From Methylovulum miyakonense HT12 (GTDB lineage Bacteria; Pseudomonadota; Gammaproteobacteria; Methylococcales; Methylomonadaceae), in contig NZ_KB913025.1 in the NCBI RefSeq assembly GCF_000384075.1, positions 1,306,119 through 1,370,118 of the forward strand: a stretch of DNA of 64,000 nucleotides, in the 5' to 3' direction. The translations under genes were made by a program, and so were the position numbers. Every line of letters starts with the position of its first letter. Positions within the stretch are counted from its first letter, which is position 1. Shown here in pieces: positions 8,708 to 25,216 of the stretch. The notes under the pieces were generated by a model. That model had not been told where the DNA came from, did no database searches, and saw only the letters and a program-made list of their open reading frames with translations.

Positions 8708-9559
8708 TTATTTTTGCATGGCGAATATTTGGTAACGATGCAAGCCTAAGCGGGCGACCAAATGCTGGAAACGGTAAAGTTTAATCATCTCTTTGGCATC
8801 TTGGCTATTCGGCTCGGTAATTTTTTCTAAAAATTTATAAGTTGGCAATGTCCCGGCGGTAATGTTGCGGATTTCTAATAATGAAAAGCCCTCGGTAGCA
8901 GCCAATTGCTTATAGCCAGACTCGCTTATTGGTTCGGCAATCTCGCCAAAATGTTTTTTCAGCAGGCTAATGTAGGGCAGGCACATCAGGGCGAAAAGTA
9001 TAAACGTAGGGCGGTAGGCAATAAAATCTGAAAAAACTAACCGTCCGCCGGGTTTAAGGACACGGTAGGCTTCTTTGAAATAATCAAGCCGCGACGGGAA
9101 GTTAAAAATACATTCCATGGCGATCACCACATCAAAACTGGCATCAGGATAGTCAAGCTTGCAAGCGTCGCCAACTTTGAAATCGACAGTATTGCCCGAG
9201 CCTATCCTAGGGATTACATTTTGCCGGGCCCGTTCTATCTGGCGGGGATCTATATTGACACCGTACAACTCAAGGTTTTGGTATTGTTGGTTGAGTAAAT
9301 CTAATGAACCACCAAAGCCACAACCCGTGTCGAGTATTTTTAGGTTGTCAGTGATGGCGGCGAGGGCGAAGTGTTGTTCTGAAAGTTCGTTGGCGGCGGC
9401 TAAAAAACCGGTCAATGAAATATCGGCCGTTTGCGGTTCATGCCAATAACCCCAATGCACATGGTTCCCAAAAGCTTTTCCCATAACCGAATCTTCGTTT
9501 TTTAGTTCCTCGAAGATCATGTCAAAATAATGCGGTGTCGTATCGTTTGTTGTTTTCAT
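8708..9559 (-). CDS. Class I SAM-dependent methyltransferase
   Basis: The 283-aa enzyme has SAM motif I ILDTGCGFGGS, an acidic ribose-binding strand ending YGVNID, and the post-motif segments DVVIAMECIFNF and VLKPGGRLVFSD. This pattern belongs to the small-molecule/lipid methyltransferases related to UbiE and sterol or tocopherol methyltransferases. The N-terminal HVHWGYW element is typical of that group. A hydrophobic patch (FILFALMCLPYISLL) could help it touch a lipid substrate. It stands alone, so the substrate is unknown. Confidence 0.85.
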   Translation of the reverse strand: MKTTNDTTPHYFDMIFEELKNEDSVMGKAFGNHVHWGYWHEPQTADISLTGFLAAANELSEQHFALAAITDNLKILDTGCGFGGSLDLLNQQYQNLELYGVNIDPRQIERARQNVIPRIGSGNTVDFKVGDACKLDYPDASFDVVIAMECIFNFPSRLDYFKEAYRVLKPGGRLVFSDFIAYRPTFILFALMCLPYISLLKKHFGEIAEPISESGYKQLAATEGFSLLEIRNITAGTLPTYKFLEKITEPNSQDAKEMIKLYRFQHLVARLGLHRYQIFAMQK

Positions 9560-12367: not shown

Positions 12368-12742
12368 AACTGATGTTACGCAGTCATTTTTGTCTTGTTG
12401 AAAAATGAGGTATAGAGTCGCTATCGCGACAGTTTATTTAAAGTCGGTTTCCGCACCGACAAGCGGGATACTTTCTTTTGCGCCGCCTCGGCAACTGCTC
12501 CTGCGTTGCCCTACCTCCTGCATCCTTGCAGTTGAAAAGAAAGTATCCAAAGAAAAGGCGTCCCGGTTGCCGCTTTTGCCTTGTGCTCCTCGATTTTGTC
12601 GGGGATCGGCAGAAAAGGGGCTTCCTGCCCCTCTGCCGATGCGCGGCTTCCTTGCCGCGCCCCTGCGGGCTGATCCCGACAAAATCTGCGGTGCTCGGCG
12701 CGGCAAACGGGAATAAAAAGACGTTACTGCGTAACGTCAGTT
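12368..12742. repeat. Multi-hairpin, inverted-repeat-bounded non-coding element (MITE/REP-like)
   Basis: The 375-bp element is bounded by a 17-bp inverted repeat with one mismatch (12368-12384 against 12726-12742). Inside are stacked palindromes: GTCGC/GCGAC (12417-12430), GTCGGT/ACCGAC (12443-12460), a perfect 14-bp pair GGATACTTTCTTTT/AAAAGAAAGTATCC (12466-12479 with 12535-12548), a long-range arm 12592-12607 with 12672-12686, an inner CGGCAGA/TCTGCCG stem (12607-12638) and GCGCGGC/GCCGCGC (12641-12660). It has higher G+C than its flanks, and no convincing ORF fits it. The AAAAGAAAGTATCC-type arm resembles dispersed intergenic elements I have seen in other proteobacteria. I cannot name the family. 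Confidence 0.75.
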
Positions 12743-14364: not shown

Positions 14365-15735
14365 CTAAGCCATAAAGCCAAGGTTGGCTGTATCAAAGCG
14401 GCTAAGGTGGGGGAAAATGGTTTCCAGTTGTGTCTCGCTAGCCCCAAACCAGCGGGCTAAGGTAGCCCCATATTGTTCGATCGAGGTGGTGGGGATCAAG
14501 CGGCCATAACCGGAATCGTCAGGGCCATCCAAGGTTTGATCGGGGAAGGTGCCGTAGACATCCCCCCCCACCACCGAACCGCCTGCGACCCATTGCACAT
14601 TACCCCACGCATGGTCAGTCCCGTCACCGTTTGACGTCAGGGTGCGCCCGAAATCAGACAAGGTGAAGCTGGTCACATCATTGCCAACGCCCAACTCATC
14701 CATCGCCCCATGGAAAGCCGCCATCGCTTGTGACAACTCGGAAATCAAATTGCCGTGGCGTTGGATTTGGTCATCATGGGTATCGTAACCGCCTTGGACA
14801 ACATAAAAAACCTGGCGTTTTATGCCAAAGGTTTGCCGGACGCTGATGACCCTGGCCACCATTTGCAATTGCTGCGCTATGGAACTGCCTGGCCAAATGC
14901 CAGTGCCGCTTGAGCTGTTTGCCAAAGCCGTGATCAAGGTCTGGCTTAAATCTATAGAGCTTTTGACTGATTTGGCGAATTCCCTTTCCAGTAAACGCCC
15001 GTTTGTCAGTGTTAAGCCCAGCATTTTATTGAAAGCTTTGGTCCGGGGGTCTTGGAGACCGCCGGAAGTGACATAAAAATTGTTGACACCACCCGGGCTC
15101 ATATAGTAAGGCACTGTGCTGTTCCCCACTTGAAACAAGTTGTTACCCGCGATGGACACGCCTAAGGGTAAGCGGCTCGTACCGTTAAGGTTAGTGAGAA
15201 GGTCCGCCATGCGCCCACCCCAGCCAATTTTTTCTAGCGCATCAAGTTCACAGGACATGCCTTGGTCGGATTGGTCGTTGTGTGAAAAAAGTTGCGGTGG
15301 CAAATGGACATTCGCCTGGTAATCAGTTTTGCTTGTAGGTTGCACCAAGGTGCCGACATTGGTCAAAAAGGCCAGACGGCCATTGTTGTATAGGTTTTGC
15401 AAGCCCGGTGCACGGCTAGAAACCGCATAGTTTTGACCGGACGGGGTAGGGTTTAAACTGAGCAAATTATCGCTGGCAAAAGCCAAGTTACCGCGTGAGG
15501 CTTTGTAGGTTTGATAGGGGCCGGTATCGGTTGGGACCAGCACATTAAAGCCGTCATTGCCACCAGCAAGAAAAATACAGACTAACGCCCGATAATCAGG
15601 GGTTGCGGCTTCAGTGGCTGCGGCTTGCATGCCGGCTAAAAAACCTAACGCGGACTTACGGTTACATGCGCCTGCTGCCGTAGCCGCCGCACATTGCAGA
15701 AAATCGCGGCGGGACCAATGTTTAGATGCAGTCAT
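14365..15735 (-). CDS. DUF1501 family protein, Tat-exported
   Basis: The 456-aa protein has an N-terminal twin-arginine signal (WSRRDFLQCAAATAA) and family features: LVCIFLAGGNDGFNVLVPTD, then QSDQGMS, a VQGGYDTHDDQIQRHGNL segment and FTLSDFGRTLTSNGDGTDHAWG near the C-terminus. DUF1501 proteins are related to the alkaline-phosphatase/sulfatase fold and nearly always pair with DUF1800; their substrate is not established. It follows the DUF1800 gene by 15 bases on the same strand. Tat export implies folding, possibly with metal, before transport to the periplasm. Confidence 0.9.
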   Translation of the reverse strand: MTASKHWSRRDFLQCAAATAAGACNRKSALGFLAGMQAAATEAATPDYRALVCIFLAGGNDGFNVLVPTDTGPYQTYKASRGNLAFASDNLLSLNPTPSGQNYAVSSRAPGLQNLYNNGRLAFLTNVGTLVQPTSKTDYQANVHLPPQLFSHNDQSDQGMSCELDALEKIGWGGRMADLLTNLNGTSRLPLGVSIAGNNLFQVGNSTVPYYMSPGGVNNFYVTSGGLQDPRTKAFNKMLGLTLTNGRLLEREFAKSVKSSIDLSQTLITALANSSSGTGIWPGSSIAQQLQMVARVISVRQTFGIKRQVFYVVQGGYDTHDDQIQRHGNLISELSQAMAAFHGAMDELGVGNDVTSFTLSDFGRTLTSNGDGTDHAWGNVQWVAGGSVVGGDVYGTFPDQTLDGPDDSGYGRLIPTTSIEQYGATLARWFGASETQLETIFPHLSRFDTANLGFMA

Positions 15736-15750
15736 GGTGGCTTCCTAATA

Positions 15751-17424
15751 TTAGCGTTGGATGAGGTAATGTGGGGAGCTCATAACTAAGTAGAGCGCTT
15801 CTAGGGCACGGTTCACGCCTTTTTCAGGATACGAAATATAAGCAATGGAACGGACATAATTAATCAATACAGTTTTCACATCAGCAGGCAGCTTATTGCC
15901 AGTCAGTATCAGGTTTAGATAAGCGACCAAGTCTGTAGGGGATCTTGCACGGGTTTTCAAGTTATTGATGTTGATCAGTATGTCGAAGGGGTTTGTATAG
16001 GGATTACCCTTGTACCGCCAATTGATCAGGCCAAATAGCTCATTATAAAAACGGGTGTTGTTGGCATCATTGACCAGTTGGAATTCAGGGGCAAAAAATC
16101 CCCTGTTTTTAATAGTCCCGCTGGGGGCAAAATCAGGCCGGAAAAAATTAAAAACACTGGGTGCCGATAAGGGAGCCTGTCCAATAGATGAATCGGGGTA
16201 ATAGTAACGGATAGTGCCATCCGCAGAATGACCATCAAAAGCCCGCCAAAGATGTGTCAGCACCAGTAGCGGTTCACGCAATTTGCCAAAATTAACGTTG
16301 GCCTGGGTTCCTTCCAATGCTTCAGGGTCAAGCAAGACCGCTTTAATCACGGCTTTCATATCACCCCGGACCCCTTTGCCGTTATCATCAAATTTGCGGG
16401 CGACACGCCGGATGTAGTCGGGTGAGGGGTTGCTGGTCACCAGCCGTTGGATAAGGCGGCGGCCAATAAAGGGGCCTACATTTGGATGGTTAAACAAGGT
16501 GTCCAAGAGGATTTTCAAATCAGCCGCCGCCAAACCTTTTTCGGGGATAACGATATTATCCAGGATCGTTTTCAGGGTTCGGTCATGATAGCCTTCAAAC
16601 GGTTTCATGCCGATACGCCAATCATCACCATCAAAAAATGACCAGGAATTCCCGAATGACCAGCCTGTTAGGGTCTTGGCTGAATTTTCAACGTCAGTTT
16701 GCGAGTAGGTTGGGATTGTGTTTCCACCCTGCAATAACGGGACGCCTGAAGGGCTTAGTTGCACCAGGCCGATGGTAAATAGCTGCATCACTTCCCGTGC
16801 ATAGTTTTCGTCGGCCCGGATACCTAGCTTACGGTTGGCTTTTTGATTGTGGAGCATGGACAAATAGCGTCCCATCGCCGGTGACAGGGTCACCCGCTCA
16901 AGAATATCGCGGAAATTGCCAAAGGCATTACGGACAAGAATGTCGTAGTAAACGGCCATCGCGTTGGTCGGTATGCCTGAACCGACATCGGAGACTACAA
17001 AAATTTCTGACAAGGCGAAAGCTACGCGCTGGCGTAATTGGTCCGGTGCGGTCACCGCATGACGGAACCAGATTTCCATACGGTTTTCGCGTTGGTTATT
17101 GTTCTGAGTTTGGTTCAGTGTGGCAAGATGGCAAGAGGCATCCATCCTGTACTGCTCATTGATCCATTCCGGTAATGTCATTTTGCTGAGATGGTTGACA
17201 TCCCTTGGCATCGCCCCGAAGGTCGCCATATTCAAAAACCGGACTGCCGTTGGTTGCGGGGTGACCGAAGGGATCTCCGCCGTGCTTGGATAAACAGGTG
17301 TTGCCATAGGGTCGTAGCAGTCTGCGGGAAGGTCCGCCAGGGCTATGCCAGGGAGCAAAATACCAAGCAAAGTGCCTAGCCTTAAGGTTTTTGCCGCAAC
17401 TTGGTGACAGGTTAAGCTTTTCAT
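15751..17424 (-). CDS. DUF1800 family secreted protein
   Basis: The 557-aa protein has a Sec signal peptide (MKSLTCHQVAAKTLRLGTLL onward) and hallmarks of DUF1800: FLNMATFGAMPRDV, LRQRVAFALSEIFVVS, NYAREVMQLFTIGLVQL, HPNVGPFIGRRLIQRLVTSNPS and a C-terminal SPHYLIQR. The start at 17424 has a GAAGGAAG ribosome site; an earlier in-frame start would precede the signal peptide with 22 polar residues. It is the first gene of a two-gene unit with DUF1501. The pair is widespread in marine and soil bacteria with no agreed function. Confidence 0.9.
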   Translation of the reverse strand: MKSLTCHQVAAKTLRLGTLLGILLPGIALADLPADCYDPMATPVYPSTAEIPSVTPQPTAVRFLNMATFGAMPRDVNHLSKMTLPEWINEQYRMDASCHLATLNQTQNNNQRENRMEIWFRHAVTAPDQLRQRVAFALSEIFVVSDVGSGIPTNAMAVYYDILVRNAFGNFRDILERVTLSPAMGRYLSMLHNQKANRKLGIRADENYAREVMQLFTIGLVQLSPSGVPLLQGGNTIPTYSQTDVENSAKTLTGWSFGNSWSFFDGDDWRIGMKPFEGYHDRTLKTILDNIVIPEKGLAAADLKILLDTLFNHPNVGPFIGRRLIQRLVTSNPSPDYIRRVARKFDDNGKGVRGDMKAVIKAVLLDPEALEGTQANVNFGKLREPLLVLTHLWRAFDGHSADGTIRYYYPDSSIGQAPLSAPSVFNFFRPDFAPSGTIKNRGFFAPEFQLVNDANNTRFYNELFGLINWRYKGNPYTNPFDILININNLKTRARSPTDLVAYLNLILTGNKLPADVKTVLINYVRSIAYISYPEKGVNRALEALYLVMSSPHYLIQR

Positions 17425-17614
17425 TGGTATCTTCCTTCGGGTGGCTTGGTATCGCAGTTTATCTATCTGCGTTACAGAAGTAAGGGGCACGTTCCGCTAG
17501 TGAGTTTAGATAACTCTTTGATGCTGTCAAGTATGGGGGCCAAAAAGTAGCCCCGTCCCCCTGTTGGGATTGCCTGACAGGATCAGCAAATCGGTGAGCA
17601 GGGAATGCTTGTGC

Positions 17615-18397
17615 TTAAGGTTTACGGCCTGCGACCAGCATTATATTGACACTGGCGAAAAACACCCCTTCAGTGTCCGCCTGTTCTTGGTAGCCGCGCC
17701 ATCGCCGCACTTCTTCAATGGAAAGTGTACCGGCCGTGATGGCTTCTTGTTCAGTCCTGTCCGCCTGGGTCGCTTGGCGGATCAACAGGCTTCGGTTGGC
17801 GGTGATCGGAAACGCTTGAAAAGAAATATCAGTCAAGCCTTGGCGTTTGAAGTGGCGGAATAATGTGCGGCCCGAATAACCGTTATGCAGTGCGGAACTG
17901 GCGACAAATCGGGCATAGCGCCGCTCAATGTCAATTTCATCAGCATCTATTGATAAGCTGCCCCAATCCGTGTCTATGGCAACAATCCAGCCGCCGGATT
18001 TGGTCACCCTGGCCATTTCCGACAAAGTTTGCGCCGGGTCTGGTAAATGTTGGAAGAGACGGTCGCTACGGCAGGCGTCGAAATAACCGTTGTCAAAAGG
18101 CAGTGATGCTGCGTCCGCCTGTTGATGTGATACCCATGCGCTGACTTCCGCTTGACCGGCCCGTCCATTGGCTTCGGCCAACATGGCCAAATCGTAATCT
18201 GCGCCGATGACTTGGCCCTGGTTGCCAACCAATAAGCCTAGCGGGATTGTGTCAGTACCCGGCCCACAGCCCAGATCCAATAGCTTATGGCCGGGTTGGA
18301 TATGCATGGCGTCATAGCTGCGCTGCTTAATGGAATTCAGTAACTTGGAGAATATATCGAGGGAATCGGCATCTAAGTAGCCTTTAGGGAGAGACAT
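17615..18397 (-). CDS. Class I SAM-dependent methyltransferase (UbiE-like)
   Basis: The 260-aa enzyme has SAM motif I LLDLGCGPGTDTIPLG (from about residue 40), acidic loop VIGADYD, DAASLPFDNGYFDACRSDRLFQHL (motif II) and a KSGGWIVAIDTDWG strand. This arrangement is typical of Methyltransf_11/UbiE-type enzymes acting on small molecules or quinone-like substrates. It is a single gene with AAGGAT ribosome site, divergent from the diiron-oxidase/acyltransferase pair at 18719. That proximity could mean a role in the same small-molecule pathway, but the genes are on opposite strands. Confidence 0.85.
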   Translation of the reverse strand: MSLPKGYLDADSLDIFSKLLNSIKQRSYDAMHIQPGHKLLDLGCGPGTDTIPLGLLVGNQGQVIGADYDLAMLAEANGRAGQAEVSAWVSHQQADAASLPFDNGYFDACRSDRLFQHLPDPAQTLSEMARVTKSGGWIVAIDTDWGSLSIDADEIDIERRYARFVASSALHNGYSGRTLFRHFKRQGLTDISFQAFPITANRSLLIRQATQADRTEQEAITAGTLSIEEVRRWRGYQEQADTEGVFFASVNIMLVAGRKP

Positions 18398-18718
18398 TGA
18401 TTATCCTTAGTTTTTTAGGGAATAGGGGGTTGGTTGGTTAGTGTGCGGCGGGCTATTTTTTCAAAAAATTTGCCAAGCGGTTAAATTGTGCGTTACTCTC
18501 AAAGCGTTTGTAATAGATTAAGCAATATTTCCATACTATCCATCCAGTTTATGGCGCGTCTGCGGGGAAATTGGTTTTAAAAACTTGGAGCCCGCCCTTG
18601 TTTTGGCACATCAGCGCAAATTCCCCAAATAGCCTCTTCATAAAATTCTCTGCCTTGCCTAAAAACGCCTGCTATAAATAGTAAATAAAATTTCAACATC
18701 AAATACATAGGGTCATCT
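18398..18718. other. Divergent promoter region, no gene seen
   Basis: 321 A/T-rich bases between the divergent methyltransferase and the diiron-oxidase-like gene. A TATAAATAG stretch about 45 bases before the 18719 ATG could be a -10 element. No lux-box-like palindrome was found by eye. Confidence 0.4.
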
Positions 18719-19351
18719 ATGCAAAATATTACAGTGCCACATGATGTATATGCTATTCAGGAGCTTGAAACACTTGCTGAAAAAGCGGCTAAAACGTTCA
18801 AACCTTTTTTAGAAGCTAACGGTTTCGATTTGGGCCAATACAAGCAATTTTTAAACATTATGTACCATTACACGGCGAGAAGCGGCGAGATGATCAGCCA
18901 CGCCGGCAATATAGCCCATGATGGATACTTAAAAGATTATTTTAAGCACATGTTCAAGGAAGAAAAAGCGCATTATATTTTAGCTAGGGAAGATTTGCGG
19001 GAATTAGGCGGGGATGTGTCAGAAGACATACCGCAATCAGTAAAAAATTTCCATGCCAACTGGTTAAGTTTAGGGGACAGCATTTATCCCTATTTAGGGG
19101 CGGTTTATGTATTCGAAAATATAGCCAAATATTTACAGGTTGAAGGCAAGCTTTTTTATGAACGCCTAGATTTAAGCAAAAAACAAAGGCGTTGGGTGGA
19201 TATTCACATGGAAGCGGATTTAGTGCATGGCCAAGAAATTATCGAAGTATGCTCACGTTATTTTGATGATGACCCGCTTGCCTGCATTGAAGGCGCTAAG
19301 ATGATGTGTGACTCCTGGATTGGGGTTTTTACCGATGTGGATAGCCATTAG
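18719..19351 (+). CDS. Heme-oxygenase-fold diiron oxidase-like protein
   Basis: The 210-aa all-helical protein fits the heme-oxygenase-like diiron oxidase/TenA-like superfamily. Candidate metal ligands fall in the expected helices: E57 (SGEMISH), E82 and H85 (EEKAHY), E133 (VFENIAKY), and E165/D167 with H170 (HMEADLVH). Known members include UndA (fatty acid to 1-alkene) and other O2-activating N-oxygenases or C-C lyases, so oxidation or decarboxylation of a fatty-acid or amino-acid-derived substrate is a reasonable inference. It is first of a two-gene unit, seven bases before the acyltransferase gene. Base use is more A/T-rich than in neighbouring housekeeping genes. Confidence 0.75.
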   Translation: MQNITVPHDVYAIQELETLAEKAAKTFKPFLEANGFDLGQYKQFLNIMYHYTARSGEMISHAGNIAHDGYLKDYFKHMFKEEKAHYILAREDLRELGGDVSEDIPQSVKNFHANWLSLGDSIYPYLGAVYVFENIAKYLQVEGKLFYERLDLSKKQRRWVDIHMEADLVHGQEIIEVCSRYFDDDPLACIEGAKMMCDSWIGVFTDVDSH

Positions 19352-19358
19352 GTAAACT

Positions 19359-20090
19359 ATGATTGATGCTTTTAATCAGTATTTTGAAATGGTTCCCGCA
19401 CTATCCAATGAGCTTAAGCAAGAAGTATTTAAGTTACGTTATCAAGTTTATTGTCTTGAAATAGCTGGTTATAAGCCCGAAGACTATCCTGACAAAATGG
19501 AATATGATGAATATGACCAACATGCCATCCATTATTTAATCCGCCATCGAAAATCCGGGGATTATGCTGCAACAACCCGGCTCATATTGCCTGATCTTGT
19601 TTTCCCGGAAAAACCGTTCCCCATTGAGGTGAATTGTAAGATCGACAATATCGAATTGATGCGGCAAATTAACCGGAGTAATTTGGCGGAAGCCTCCCGG
19701 TTTTGCATATCAAAAGCGTTCAAAAGAAGAAAGAATGAACCCAATACCTTGGTGGCAATAAACGAAGATTATTGTGAAAGCCAGGGGTATTTTTCTTTGC
19801 TAGAACGGCGGGCGCTTCCCCATATGAGTTTTGCGCTGATAACCTGCTTAATAAGAAGTTGTTATGAAAATAATATTGAATACCTTTTTGGGACTTTGGA
19901 ACCTGCTTGGTTCCGTTTTTTGTCATCGGCGGGGGTTCATTTTATAAAAATAGGCCCGTTGCTGGATTATCACGGGGAGAGATGGCCGTGCATCATTAAA
20001 ATCAAGGATTTAGTTGAGAGCATAGCAAATGAAAACAATCAATTATGGGAAATGTTAAGCGAAAAAGGGGATTATAAATTTTTTAAGTAA
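19359..20090 (+). CDS. LuxI-like / PEP-CTERM-exosortase-associated acyltransferase (GNAT fold)
   Basis: The 243-aa protein matches the family annotated as PEP-CTERM/exosortase system-associated acyltransferase, related to LuxI and FeeM N-acyl amino acid synthases. Markers are LRYQVYCLE (R27, invariant in LuxI-like enzymes), the acidic YDEYD loop, GDYAATTRLILP (R74) and EASRF (E111, R114). Such enzymes transfer an acyl chain, often from acyl carrier protein, to an amine. No exosortase or PEP-CTERM gene is in the window. The tight link to a diiron-oxidase-like gene suggests acylation plus oxidation of one metabolite. The LuxI comparison is structural; homoserine-lactone synthesis is not implied. 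Confidence 0.78.
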   Translation: MIDAFNQYFEMVPALSNELKQEVFKLRYQVYCLEIAGYKPEDYPDKMEYDEYDQHAIHYLIRHRKSGDYAATTRLILPDLVFPEKPFPIEVNCKIDNIELMRQINRSNLAEASRFCISKAFKRRKNEPNTLVAINEDYCESQGYFSLLERRALPHMSFALITCLIRSCYENNIEYLFGTLEPAWFRFLSSAGVHFIKIGPLLDYHGERWPCIIKIKDLVESIANENNQLWEMLSEKGDYKFFK

Positions 20091-20098
20091 AAGGAGGG

Positions 20099-22234
20099 TT
20101 AAAAATCAATGGAGGCTTCAAAATAAAAGCTTCTGCCGGCCAGAGGCAAATTTTGTGGCAGTTGCAAGGTTGCGGGTTCAAGAGGGTATTCATTAAAAGC
20201 ATTTCGTAAGGAAGCGGCAAGATTTAAGTGCTTAAATAATTTTTTACCGCGTAGGGTGAGGTCAACGGTCTCATAATCATCCAGTGGGCGTTGGTCATTT
20301 AGGCTACGGGTTCTCCCTGATATCCAGTTAAGTTGCGGCTGTAGCTGCCATTGAGGTGAAAAATGCCAGCCTAAGGCCACATAGATATGATGTTCTGGCA
20401 CGCCTGTAATGCGTTGCTTGGTATCGGCATTGGTCGCGTGTTGCCACGCATAATTGCCTTTTATCTGCCACTGCTGGTTCCATTGCCATTCCCATTCAAA
20501 TTCAGAGCCATAACCATTTTGATTGCCGTTGTTTTGATATTGGTTTAAGCCATTGGCCACTGGCACGGCGGATATAAGGTTGTTAATCTCATAATAATAC
20601 ACGTTAAGCGTTGTGTGCAGTGACAACAGGGGACGATAATCAAAAGCCAGTTCAGTGGTGTTGATGGTTTCCGGTTTCAGGTGTTTATTGCCCAGTACGA
20701 CGGGGTTGTTTTGCGTGCCTTGTTCAGAAAAATTAGGTGCCCTAAAGGCTCTGCCATAAAGCAGTTTTCCGGTTAACTGTTCATTAATGTCCCAAACTAG
20801 GGCTAAACGCGGGTTTAAGGTGCCGCCAAAATCAGAATAATTGTCATAACGCACACCTGAGGTCAGTTGCCAGTTTTTGGCGATTTGCCATTCGTCCTGG
20901 GCGACCAATGACCAAATTGAGCGGTTGGTATCAGCCAGGTAGACGAAAGGCGTGCCGGTCAGGTTCGTTAGCTGTCCGTTTACTACCGTTTGGGTATTGT
21001 CCGTTATCACGCCTGTACCAATGTTTTTACTCTCCGTCGTCGAAATCTCCTCATAGCGAAAGCCCGTGTTCAGGCGGAAGACATGCCGGTCCAAGCCATG
21101 GTAAATGGACGTCAATTCCATGGACGGGATGTTTTCTGAGCGCCCAACATTGGCGTTGACCCCATCGGGGAAACTTATCAGTGAAAAATTGGAGAGGTTG
21201 ATGTTGCCATTGGGGCCTATAGGCAATTTGGCGTTATTGGGGAATGCCTGGAATTGCGCGAGAAAATCGGTGTGCAGGTAACTGGCATGGGCGGTCAGTT
21301 CCCAATCCTCGAGCCAGTCCTCTGTGGAAAACCGCACATCGCTTAAATATTGTTCGCCGTTAGCGACGCCCTTGGGGTCTAAGGCGTTAGCAACACCGGC
21401 ACGTGTGCCGGCATCCATGGAATTAAATCCCCAAAAGCCGATGTCCCAGTGCTTGCGCTGTAAGTTGAGATGCCCATTCAAGGTTTCATAGCGTGAATTT
21501 AAAGCCCCTGGGGCATGTGAGGCATTGGTGCCAAGTGCGTTGTCGAATGCCGTTTGGGCGTCGGCATTCATAATACGCCCGCCATCGCCTTGGGTATGTT
21601 GGTATTGCAGGCTAGTGGCCACGTTCCAGCCTGCCAATTCAGCACTATGTTGCCCCCAAGTGCTTTGGGTATCCCAGTTGCCAGCACGCACACCTGCCCG
21701 GGTACCATTAATGTCCCCCGCTTTTTTAGTGATAATATTGATGACGCCAGCAAAAGCATCGGCACCGTATAATGCGGAGCCGGGGCCGCGGATGACTTCG
21801 ACGCGCTGGATGGCTTCAATTGGCATTTCTGTGCCGGTCATCAGCGTGCCAATAAAGGGCGTGGTGATGCGCGTACCGTTTAACAGGATCAACACTTGCG
21901 AATTGGCGGTGTTTTTTATGCCCCGTATCGTGTAGTTATAGTCATTACCGCCTTCCGTCAGGCTGGCATGGACACCCGGGACTGTTTCCAGCACTTCATG
22001 CAGCTCGGTGGCTCCCATGGATTTGATCTGGTCAGCGGTAATCACACTGGTGATGGCGGCGGATTGGAACATGGGCCGGGGGGTGCCGGTGGCGATGGTG
22101 ACGGGGATATTGGCAAGTTCTGCGGGTGACATCGCAAAATAATCTTCCACTTCAGCATCAGCCAGGGCTGCCTTGGTATAGGCGCAGCAGAAGAGCATTA
22201 AAAAGGTAGCGGGGTTAATGGCCTTGATGTTCAT
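20099..22234 (-). CDS. TonB-dependent outer-membrane receptor
   Basis: The 711-aa receptor has a signal peptide, a plug domain (TSVITADQIKSMGATELHEV, VRGPGSALYGADAFAGVINI) and a 22-strand barrel ending in phenylalanine (YFEASIDF). The plug resembles the CirA/colicin-I or BtuB type, but the ligand cannot be read from sequence. A DYFAMSPAELANIPV stretch precedes the plug, as in receptors of this subgroup. Its start overlaps the stop of the GGDEF gene by four bases (ATGA), making it the last gene of a yfiR-GGDEF-receptor operon. Confidence 0.92.
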   Translation of the reverse strand: MNIKAINPATFLMLFCCAYTKAALADAEVEDYFAMSPAELANIPVTIATGTPRPMFQSAAITSVITADQIKSMGATELHEVLETVPGVHASLTEGGNDYNYTIRGIKNTANSQVLILLNGTRITTPFIGTLMTGTEMPIEAIQRVEVIRGPGSALYGADAFAGVINIITKKAGDINGTRAGVRAGNWDTQSTWGQHSAELAGWNVATSLQYQHTQGDGGRIMNADAQTAFDNALGTNASHAPGALNSRYETLNGHLNLQRKHWDIGFWGFNSMDAGTRAGVANALDPKGVANGEQYLSDVRFSTEDWLEDWELTAHASYLHTDFLAQFQAFPNNAKLPIGPNGNINLSNFSLISFPDGVNANVGRSENIPSMELTSIYHGLDRHVFRLNTGFRYEEISTTESKNIGTGVITDNTQTVVNGQLTNLTGTPFVYLADTNRSIWSLVAQDEWQIAKNWQLTSGVRYDNYSDFGGTLNPRLALVWDINEQLTGKLLYGRAFRAPNFSEQGTQNNPVVLGNKHLKPETINTTELAFDYRPLLSLHTTLNVYYYEINNLISAVPVANGLNQYQNNGNQNGYGSEFEWEWQWNQQWQIKGNYAWQHATNADTKQRITGVPEHHIYVALGWHFSPQWQLQPQLNWISGRTRSLNDQRPLDDYETVDLTLRGKKLFKHLNLAASLRNAFNEYPLEPATLQLPQNLPLAGRSFYFEASIDF

Positions 22235-24636
22235 TGAGGGTCACGGGTAAAAGGTATTATCAGCTTGAGATCATGCAAGGGGACGGGTTTGCCGATACCG
22301 TAGCCTTGAGCATAATCCACTCCCAACTCTTTAAGCAAGTTAAATATACGTTCATTTTCGACAAACTCGGCAATGGTTTTTTTGCCCATCATTTGCCCGA
22401 CTTCGTTGATGGCCTTCACCATGGCAAAATCGATCTTATCATCCAGAATATCCTTCACGAACAAACCATCTATCTTCAAAAAATCGACCGGCAAGTTTTT
22501 CAAATAGGCAAAAGATGACAGCCCGCTACCAAAATCATCTAATGAGAAAGAGCAGCCCTTGTCCCTGAGCTGGTGGATAAAGCGGGTGGCGCTGGTCAAG
22601 TTGCTGATCGCGGCGGTTTCGGTAATCTCGAAACAGATTTTATGGGTGGGAATGTCCCAGGTTTTAAATTGTTCGATGATAAAGTTAAACAAGCTCTCAT
22701 CTGAGAGGGATAGGCCAGACAGGTTGACCGCGCAAAGTTCGAGTTGGTCAAGAAAATTGGGGGTATTGGCAATCCAAGCAAAGAGGTTCTTGATGACCCA
22801 TCTGTCCATGGCCGGGGCTAAATTGTAGCGCTCGGCAGCGGGTAAAAACGCCCCTGGCGGAATGATGCTGCCTTTGGCGTCCTTATAGCGGACTAGGGTT
22901 TCAAAATGGAGTTTCGTATCCGGTTTGTTAATGCCCGCTATCGGTTGCCCGTAGAGGCAAAACAGGTCTTGTTCCAGAGCCTGATGGATTTTTTGTACCC
23001 ATTGCATTTCGCCATGCCGCAGCGCCAATTCTTCATCATCAGGCCGAAATACGTGGACGCGGTTGCGGCCTTTATCTTTGGCCGCATAACAGGCGGCATC
23101 GGCCTCTTTAAGCAGGTTGACCGCATTGGCGCTGGTGTCCTTGATTAAGGCGATGCCGATACTGACGCCGACCGAAAACCGCCTGCCTTCCCAGGCAAAA
23201 TGGAAGTCCGTGACGGCATTACGTATTTTTTCACTGGTGTTAATGGCTTCCTCCAGCGAACAGTAATACATGAGTATGCCAAATTCGTCGCCACCTAAGC
23301 GCGCGATGAAGTCATTGCGGCGCAACTGTTTTTTGAGCAAGTCACCCAATTGCCGGAGCAGCTCATCGCCGGCCAAGTGCCCGGAAGTGTCATTGACGAT
23401 TTTAAATTGGTCCAAATCCAAATAACACAGGGCGTGTTCCGAGTTATTGGAACTGGCTAAGGTAATCGCCTGTTTTATGGCTTTATCGAATTCAATGCGG
23501 TTGGCCAGCCCGGTTAAGGAGTCATGGCTAGCTTGATAGGCAATTTGCAGGCTGAGGTTATGGGTCTCGGTGACATCTTCGCAAACCAATAGCAAATTGT
23601 TTTGTTGGCCATCGAAAGCGACCATACGGGCGGTGGCCCTGACCCAAATAATACGGCCATTATCACAAACTTGCCGCAGTTCCTGTTTGTGGACTGACAA
23701 GGGCATGGTCAGGCACTGTGAGATGAGTTCGCGCATTAAGGAGATGTCGGCCGGATGCACAAAATCCAAAACGGAGCTTTCTTCCAAGGCATTGACGCTC
23801 AGGCCCAAATGATTGGCCCCCGTCAGATTGACGGACATGATCATGCCGTTTTCAGTCAGGTTGAAAATCATGGTCGGGTTGTCATCGTACAAAGCCAAAT
23901 AGCGGTCTTTGGCCCGCGTGATGGCCTGGTTTTGGTTTTCTACGCGGATGATCAGGTCATTGAAGGCGTCGACTAAGACCCCCAGCTCATCGTTATAAAG
24001 TTTCTCCGCCCTTAACGAATAATCTTTGGAATTGCTGATCGCGATAACCGTGGTCACCAGTTTTTTTACCGGTAAGGCAATGAGTTTTATGAATGGCGCC
24101 GTCAAAAAGAAAGCAAGGACCGAACCGATGGCCAGTACGGAAAAGACCACGAGGGTAAACTTAATCTTCCGCGAGTAGGCTTCGGCAAAGTTGGCGTATA
24201 CGAGGATGCTGCCCTCAACATCCCCTTTGGTGATGATCGGCACCCTCACCCATAATAGGCTGTTGTCGAAATGGCTGGACTCCCCCTCAATTAATGGCGG
24301 GCAAACCCAGTTGGCGTTCAGGGCACTTTTTAAAAATTGGGCAAAAATTTGGCCTTGCTTGTTATAGATGCAGGCCGTTTCCACGGCGGGTTGGATATGC
24401 AGCGCGGCCAAGTTTTCCTTGGCCAATTCAGGGTCGCTGAAGGCTAGTGCGGCGGCGCTCCGGTTGCCTATCACGGTTGCCAGAGTAGTCAGGTCATTTT
24501 CGACGACTTTTTTAAATTCCGCCGTTTCCAGCACGATCAACACCACGCCAGCAAACAACAAGGAAATCAGGCTGGGAAACAGGACGGTTAGGAGCAGTTT
24601 GCTATGTATGGAGAGGTCGCGGATTTTGTTAATCAT
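22231..24636 (-). CDS. CHASE8-HAMP-PAS-GGDEF-EAL(ETL) c-di-GMP enzyme, YfiN-like
   Basis: The 801-aa inner-membrane protein has TM1 near 15-38, a periplasmic domain of the CHASE8/YfiN kind to about 155, TM2 near 158-185, HAMP, a PAS domain (245-360), GGDEF (365-525, motif GGDEF intact at 448-452) and an EAL domain. The EAL signature reads ETL (579-581), while DDFGSG and the later AEFVE element are kept, so phosphodiesterase activity remains possible. It probably synthesises or degrades c-di-GMP under control of the adjacent YfiR-like protein. The ATG at 24636 lies inside the end of the yfiR-like gene (8-base overlap). Confidence 0.9.
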   Translation of the reverse strand: MINKIRDLSIHSKLLLTVLFPSLISLLFAGVVLIVLETAEFKKVVENDLTTLATVIGNRSAAALAFSDPELAKENLAALHIQPAVETACIYNKQGQIFAQFLKSALNANWVCPPLIEGESSHFDNSLLWVRVPIITKGDVEGSILVYANFAEAYSRKIKFTLVVFSVLAIGSVLAFFLTAPFIKLIALPVKKLVTTVIAISNSKDYSLRAEKLYNDELGVLVDAFNDLIIRVENQNQAITRAKDRYLALYDDNPTMIFNLTENGMIMSVNLTGANHLGLSVNALEESSVLDFVHPADISLMRELISQCLTMPLSVHKQELRQVCDNGRIIWVRATARMVAFDGQQNNLLLVCEDVTETHNLSLQIAYQASHDSLTGLANRIEFDKAIKQAITLASSNNSEHALCYLDLDQFKIVNDTSGHLAGDELLRQLGDLLKKQLRRNDFIARLGGDEFGILMYYCSLEEAINTSEKIRNAVTDFHFAWEGRRFSVGVSIGIALIKDTSANAVNLLKEADAACYAAKDKGRNRVHVFRPDDEELALRHGEMQWVQKIHQALEQDLFCLYGQPIAGINKPDTKLHFETLVRYKDAKGSIIPPGAFLPAAERYNLAPAMDRWVIKNLFAWIANTPNFLDQLELCAVNLSGLSLSDESLFNFIIEQFKTWDIPTHKICFEITETAAISNLTSATRFIHQLRDKGCSFSLDDFGSGLSSFAYLKNLPVDFLKIDGLFVKDILDDKIDFAMVKAINEVGQMMGKKTIAEFVENERIFNLLKELGVDYAQGYGIGKPVPLHDLKLIIPFTRDPQ

Positions 24637-25216
24637 GGTTGCCACCTTCGATGATTTCAGCGACTTCCAATAATTTGGCACTGACTTTTAACTCGCTGAG
24701 CTGAAAAGCTTGCCGGTTGATTTGTAATTTTATCCGGCTGTCCTCGGTGACAAAGCCGATCATGCCGCCGTTACTGGCAAAATGTTCGCTTTCGCCTACG
24801 GTCAAGACATTTTTTGCATCCTTGACCGTAGGCGGCGTCTCAATGGATGAACTGATGAACAGGATATGGCATAAGGTCGATTTGCTGATCTTGGCCAGGG
24901 TGCTGTTATTTTCAAGCCTGAGAAGCTTGATCGGCTTGCCAAAGGCCGTACGCTGTTCGATGGGGTCAATTAAATCGCCAAAAGGGTCATTGCCCAAAAT
25001 GCATATGTTAAAGGTGGCTGAGGTGTCTTCGGGCCAGGTAACGAACTTGGTGAAGTTATAGAGATAACCGGCTTTTATTTTATATTCAATGTCGCCCGCA
25101 TAGAGCGTCCCCGAAAACAACAGGCCGCCTAAAGACAGGACAACCCATAGCCATTTTATGATGTTTATTATCGTACCCCAGCGGCGGGACAGGTAATCGA
25201 AGGATAGATAATGCAA
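24629..25216 (-). CDS. YfiR-like periplasmic protein (DUF4154), TTG start
   Basis: The 195-aa protein contains a signal-anchor-like hydrophobic segment (IIKWLWVVLSLGGLLFSG) and a DUF4154 domain: YKIKAGYLYNFTKFVTWP, FNICILGNDPFG, SLCHILFISSS-like strand and GGMIGFVTEDSRIKLQIN. In Pseudomonas YfiR represses the diguanylate cyclase YfiN in the periplasm and responds to redox or envelope stress; the same partner arrangement is seen here. No ATG exists between the upstream stop and the signal segment, so the TTG at 25216, with AAGG upstream, is the likely start. It is first in the operon. Confidence 0.85.
   Translation of the reverse strand: MHYLSFDYLSRRWGTIINIIKWLWVVLSLGGLLFSGTLYAGDIEYKIKAGYLYNFTKFVTWPEDTSATFNICILGNDPFGDLIDPIEQRTAFGKPIKLLRLENNSTLAKISKSTLCHILFISSSIETPPTVKDAKNVLTVGESEHFASNGGMIGFVTEDSRIKLQINRQAFQLSELKVSAKLLEVAEIIEGGNHD

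Follow-up and report, generated by a model that had tools for sequence, protein, structure and literature searches.

What would a bacterium make with a predicted diiron oxidase and an acyltransferase whose genes almost touch? The question is raised by the methanotroph Methylovulum miyakonense HT12, within a window of 64,000 nucleotides (contig NZ_KB913025.1, positions 1,306,119 to 1,370,118), which is the whole stretch of DNA analysed here and from whose first base the features below are numbered. In the oxidase superfamily concerned, that of the haem-oxygenase-like dimetal oxidases (HDOs), about a dozen members with known reactions stand against more than ten thousand predicted ones, according to the available part of a review (PMC13108848). 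Touching gene pairs of this kind in distant bacteria suggest an uncharacterised pathway whose product would be a small, lipid-like molecule. A recurrent synthase partner narrows the substrate for an HDO branch that crosses phyla and makes it directly testable, and a tailoring oxidase in Methylovulum could matter for the life of such bacteria in gradients. No description of an HDO/N-acyl amino acid synthase pair was found, by title and abstract start, among the papers listed from a body of literature outside which most subscription journals lie.

The gene pair and its flanks

Both genes are read on the forward strand. The HDO ORF (18719..19351, 210 aa), defined by PF14518, an AlphaFold model and residue conservation, is followed by a gap of 7 bases from its stop to the next ATG (19352..19358, forward strand) and by the ORF of an N-acyl amino acid synthase-type acyltransferase (19359..20090, 243 aa), assigned by its TIGR03694 score and Foldseek matches. 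The positions of both ORFs and the seven bases between them, as given in the initial annotation, are confirmed in the sequence. By coordinates, the gap is 7 bases in Methylovulum sp. STC_68 (locus L008) too, where 9428 is the last base of the HDO ORF and the homologous acyltransferase has its ATG at 9420. The genome of the window holds one match to the HDO and one gene over the TIGR03694 cut-off.

The pair is flanked by a methyltransferase on one side and by a TonB-type receptor (read from its translation) on the other. The divergent SAM methyltransferase (Methyltransf_11; 17615..18397, reverse strand) is syntenic in the second Methylovulum, with 80% identity. The intergenic region separating it from the pair (18398..18718) is alignable with that genome, and a simple promoter scan found no sigma-70-like site in it. 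That the methyltransferase is a third member of the pathway is possible but unproven. Its likeness to the methyltransferase upstream of the HDO in locus L048 is weak (28% over 130 aa, E 8e-11), and the family is a very common one. Both genes of the pair are under purifying selection in the two pair-bearing Methylovulum genomes, with dN/dS of ∼0.10 for the oxidase and ∼0.17 for the acyltransferase, synonymous changes being near saturation. The three flanking genes give ∼0.08–0.11 in the same two genomes; thus, the pair is kept like its neighbours.

The reverse-strand array that adjoins the pair (20099–25216) consists, in a row, of the TonB-type receptor, a GGDEF/EAL membrane protein and a YfiR-like protein, all named from translations. 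It looks like a cyclic-di-GMP signalling module and, judging by first residues, also lies beside the pair in L008.

Fold and family of the oxidase

The HDO ORF matches PF14518 (Haem_oxygenas_2) with E 3.3e-12 and 47 bits, against a cut-off of 28.9, and its AlphaFold model has a pLDDT of 85.8. The nearest solved structure is 3dde, a haem-oxygenase-like domain of unknown function. It is followed in the Foldseek ranking by CtCADD (E 9.6e-5, TMq 0.81), TenA homologues, HrmI (E 9.4e-4), UndA (TMq 0.71–0.76, identity 10–13%) and BesC, with haem oxygenase lower. The heme-oxygenase fold claimed at the outset is therefore borne out by the PF14518 score and the AlphaFold/Foldseek comparison, and the helical fold that defines the HDO superfamily is present in the predicted structure. 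On this model, the protein is predicted to group with the diiron oxidases CADD, HrmI, UndA and BesC. TenA and haem oxygenase have this fold as well, so the case for a diiron site depends on the ligand residues. Overall, the protein resembles the HDO superfamily (UndA, BesC, SznF, CADD, HrmI, PolF, AetD and MboA) in its predicted fold, its PF14518 match and its 3H/3C-type ligand residues, but is only ∼10–16% identical to characterised members in structural alignments. Close sequence kinship with the fatty acid decarboxylase UndA was rejected, given 10–13% identity in structure alignments and the absence of UndA from the sequence matches.

Metal ligands

In HDOs, the ligand pattern is 3H/3C (three histidines and three carboxylates) on core helices, as stated in the part of the review available (PMC13108848). 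Conservation was counted on an alignment of 37 HDO rows, of which 16 are acyltransferase-linked (window included) and 21 unlinked. The likely ligand set of the window protein, as read from its sequence, is E82 (or E81), H85, E133, H163, D167 and H170; E82 is preferred on the basis of what we take to be the E-x-x-H spacing of UndA. E82, E133, H163 and H170 occur in all 37 rows and H85 in 36 of them. The ligands initially proposed, E57, H85, E133, D167 and H170, hold in part: H85, E133 and H170 are invariant in the 16 linked rows, but E57 is not conserved, being Glu in 3/16 linked rows (window, L008 and L048) and 3/37 overall. D167 is Asp in 20/21 unlinked rows versus just 7/16 linked ones, and E82 and H163, each present in 37/37 rows, had been missed. 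All six residues of a 3H/3C site are found in the window protein and in L008. Of the 16 paired rows, nine, spread over five phyla, have instead H165 and E166 in an H-x-H-E motif, and Asp 167 is missing from every one of the nine.

The acyltransferase

Scores place the second gene firmly within TIGR03694 (exosort_acyl, 234.4 bits against a cut-off of 111.95) and over the cut-off of Acetyltransf_5 (57.4 against 22.4). It falls under that of the LuxI model PF00765 (Autoind_synth, 22.8 against 24) and just under the gathering cut-off of PF21926 (FeeM, 26.2 against 27). Being under the FeeM and LuxI Pfam cut-offs, it is best named a TIGR03694-type N-acyl amino acid synthase and, on these profile scores, best called a synthase of that kind rather than an AHL synthase. 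The earlier assignment to a LuxI/PEP-CTERM-associated family is upheld by the TIGR03694 score; its LuxI part is better put as the N-acyl amino acid synthase family. The AlphaFold model (pLDDT 72.1, poor at residues 123–151 and 236–243) is matched in Foldseek by TofI, LasI, BjaI and FeeM, the AHL synthases best and FeeM nearly as well.

The gene is a TIGR03694 member by score, and most partner genes of HDOs elsewhere pass the FeeM cut-off. Unlike many of its relatives in the order, which adjoin ThiF or cNMP genes, it adjoins an HDO, and it is far from the exosortases of its genome. The latter are matches that pass the PF09721 cut-off, one at 262455 and one at 4579371; with the pair at 1324837, the linear distances are ∼1.06 and ∼3.25 Mb. 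This whole-genome search agrees with the initial remark that the window has no exosortase. A function as ornithine-lipid synthase was set aside. OlsB belongs to the same Acetyltransf_5 superfamily, but another gene of the genome, near 2186094, matches Acetyltransf_5 with 117 bits and is presumably OlsB.

The pair in distant bacteria

Directly adjacent genes of the FeeM/TIGR03694 superfamily, in both gene orders, accompany 11 of 12 distinct HDO relatives outside the window. The relatives come from Methylovulum, another genome of the same family, Dokdonella, two further genomes of the class, Verrucomicrobiota, Cyanobacteriota, Bacteroidota and Planctomycetota, so that the phyla with the pair are these last four and Pseudomonadota. 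Searches with the window HDO alone found, the window itself apart, two matches in 201 genomes of the order and two more in 369 of the class, and all four are paired. In genome_contigs (84,980 species), a pattern scan picked out 115 candidate stretches, from which 10 loci were confirmed; two being repeats, eight were new, and seven of the eight are paired, in a scan drawn towards paired branches because its seed alignment consisted of four members all known to be paired. By our own estimate, assuming one or two such genes per ∼4000-gene genome, chance adjacency would be ∼1 in 1000 per locus. In the unpaired relative (L051), a synthase lies ∼14 kb away, apparently on the same contig.

The partners each match FeeM, Acetyltransf_5 or TIGR03694 models of Pfam and NCBIfam, that of L008 by TIGR03694. 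The gathering cut-off of PF21926 is passed by most, not all, partner genes elsewhere; the L011/L049 partner passes no curated Pfam or NCBIfam cut-off and the L050 partner those of generic GNAT models only. Two partners (L012:8206-9318 and L046:2492-3634) carry a fused cNMP-binding domain. In the H-x-H-E group, the oxidases are ∼40–69% identical across phyla (L052 and L053 left out) and their partners ∼19–33%, where BLAST matches them at all. Conserved oxidases beside diverged partners fit an oxidase that acts on a constant moiety.

A whole-genome FeeM search was run in eight HDO-bearing genomes and gave a match in seven. In five, the best match is the neighbour of the HDO. In one, it lies ∼14 kb from the HDO, apparently on the same contig, and in the L048 genome the match is a second pair, the known neighbour not being among the matches listed. 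The eighth genome has none at threshold, though the HDO neighbour there scores 26.5 bits. Locus L048, from a Saprospiraceae MAG, comprises a methyltransferase, an HDO, a synthase, KAS III, a methyltransferase-like gene (under cut-off), a desaturase and a second HDO-family gene (L048:5826-6533); on another contig of the same genome, a second synthase overlaps a PF14518 gene. With L060/L109 counted, three HDO-family genes surround the two synthases of this genome.

Limits of the pairing

Pairing is confined to certain branches and, in that of the window, is seen in two Methylovulum only. A close HDO occurs in 2/201 sampled genomes of the order and in 2/12 genomes listed as the same genus. The closest HDOs outside the genus, in L073 and on a Vibrio plasmid (L013), have no acyltransferase-profile match nearby. 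Neighbours of the HDO are a P450 and a fatty acid desaturase in L073/L108, and in L013 an FMO-like gene, transporters and, ∼4 kb away, a different GNAT with sub-cut-off similarity to NodA. A wider HDO profile matches 104 of 398 genomes of the phylum, and three of the 29 loci fetched with it besides that of the window are paired (L015, L018 and L020). By our own acyltransferase profile, applied within ∼1.5 kb, none of seven loci around the cyanobacterial centre and none of three around the planctomycete centre is paired. Together with the unpaired nearest HDOs, these unpaired loci indicate that pairing belongs to certain branches. On an HDO tree of 37 rows (16 paired, and 21 unpaired chosen from 39), the paired label changes six times, versus a mean of 12.3 after shuffling, and none of 500 shuffles is as low; the long branches leave the deep joins of this tree unsure.

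Samples of 257 genomes around the Bacteroidota match and 221 around the Verrucomicrobiota match returned, at E 1e-15, the centre genome only. Two scans of viral contigs found no relative, and a plasmid search with the cyanobacterial HDO gave nothing useful. Phage or plasmid cargo was set aside as an explanation, with no phage match and one distant plasmid match, as were defence genes, with no PADLOC match. Many wider-profile loci of Pseudomonadota (L016–L043) show another arrangement, read from translations, of an AMP-ligase, a PF14518-like protein, a short-chain dehydrogenase and a small exported protein, in which ligase and HDO sometimes form one frame.

Partners of the synthase in Methylococcales

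TIGR03694 is found in 37/73 genomes of the order. Thirty of the 74 rows listed were examined, as one best match per genome with that of the window included, and partners were typed by BLAST to one or two representatives within ∼1.5 kb, three representatives being checked by Pfam. The partner is ThiF at 10 loci, a cNMP-binding protein at seven and an HDO at two (both Methylovulum), and none of these at 11; nothing within 1.5 kb of the window acyltransferase matches ThiF. Given such varied partners, the synthase appears to have several interchangeable ones, the oxidase being one of them. The idea of a functional pair thus gains support beyond the window from the oxidase side (11/12 relatives) and meets rarity from the acyltransferase side (2/30 loci). 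The initial annotation had staked that idea on adjacency and on ligand conservation: adjacency is usual in close HDO branches and the core ligands are kept, but E57 is not.

In the clusters for N-acyl dehydrotyrosine, according to the available part of the source, the synthase occurs with ThiF and an O2-dependent nitroreductase (PMC12479983). TyzABC and the clusters for stieleriacines and thalassotalic and kyonggic acids are, in the same partial text, similar to the present locus in that a synthase stands beside tailoring genes, one of them O2-dependent (PMC12479983). They differ in their oxidant, a nitroreductase plus a ThiF protein, where the window has an HDO. With ThiF beside synthases of the order, this published set suggests that the HDO occupies the place of a tailoring enzyme.

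A proposed pathway and its alternatives

With moderate confidence, we propose that the pair is a small operon whose enzymes together make an O2-modified N-acyl amino acid. The pairing is observed, and the substrate, reaction and product that follow are what we infer. Judging from its family and fold, the acyltransferase would take a fatty acyl group from acyl-ACP and N-acylate an amino acid with it. The HDO would bind two metal ions, probably iron, through its 3H/3C ligands and activate O2. Its target would be the amino-acid moiety, either free or already acylated, which it would oxidatively desaturate, decarboxylate or cleave at a C–C bond, and it would so hold the place of the ThiF and O2-dependent nitroreductase partners in the N-acyl-dehydrotyrosine/tyrazolone pathways. 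The product may be, probably, a surface, biofilm or signalling lipid. A broader proposal, on balance doubtful, is that of a mobile or repeatedly assembled module of synthase and HDO, spread over at least five phyla and making an undescribed class of O2-modified N-acyl amino acids, with one HDO branch carrying a variant metal site (H-x-H-E-x-x-x-H without the usual Asp).

The oxidase could act on the acyl chain instead, a UndA-like enzyme modifying the fatty acid or acyl-ACP and the acyltransferase then using its product. UndA is indeed an HDO that acts on fatty acids and a structural match (TMq 0.71–0.76), and fatty acid desaturase genes lie near the HDOs of L048 and L108, with KAS III in L048. 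This is nevertheless unlikely, as identity to UndA is just 10–13% in structural alignments and the desaturases could themselves be the chain modifiers. HDO substrates include both fatty and amino acids, and the available part of the review favours neither (PMC13108848).

The synthase could also be an ordinary PEP-CTERM/exosortase one that works in trans with the exosortases of the genome, the HDO being an unrelated neighbour. A 2011 paper reportedly linked such synthases to PEP-CTERM systems. The genome has two exosortases and no other gene that passes the TIGR03694 cut-off, an HDO is missing from the surrounding ∼1.5 kb at 28/30 of the TIGR03694 loci examined in Methylococcales, and the nearest HDOs outside the genus are unpaired. 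Adjacency in 11/12 relatives from five phyla is, however, far beyond chance, and the 7-bp spacing and the purifying selection on both genes in the two Methylovulum also make an accidental neighbourhood improbable.

A protective or redox role for the HDO-fold protein, or one as a partner of the acyltransferase without catalysis of its own, is very unlikely. In the available part of its source, the HDO-like DtpC of Acinetobacter guards against desiccation-linked oxidative stress (PMC13232832), and TenA homologues and haem oxygenase match the model, so that the fold alone is no proof of a diiron oxidase; yet the ligand residues are conserved, and the partner in paired relatives is of an acyl-transferring family. 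A true LuxI-type AHL synthase, whose homoserine-lactone signal the HDO would tailor, is hardly credible, for although the best Foldseek matches are the AHL synthases TofI, LasI and BjaI, FeeM structures match nearly as well and PF00765 (22.8) stays under its cut-off of 24, against 234 bits for TIGR03694.

Minor features of the window

Two further features lie upstream of the pair. A near-perfect 17-nt inverted repeat (12368–12384 and 12726–12742, 341 bases apart), with two copies only within the window, flanks a segment without an obvious gene. On the reverse strand, two adjacent long ORFs (14365–17490) resemble what we take to be the common DUF1501/DUF1800 pair.
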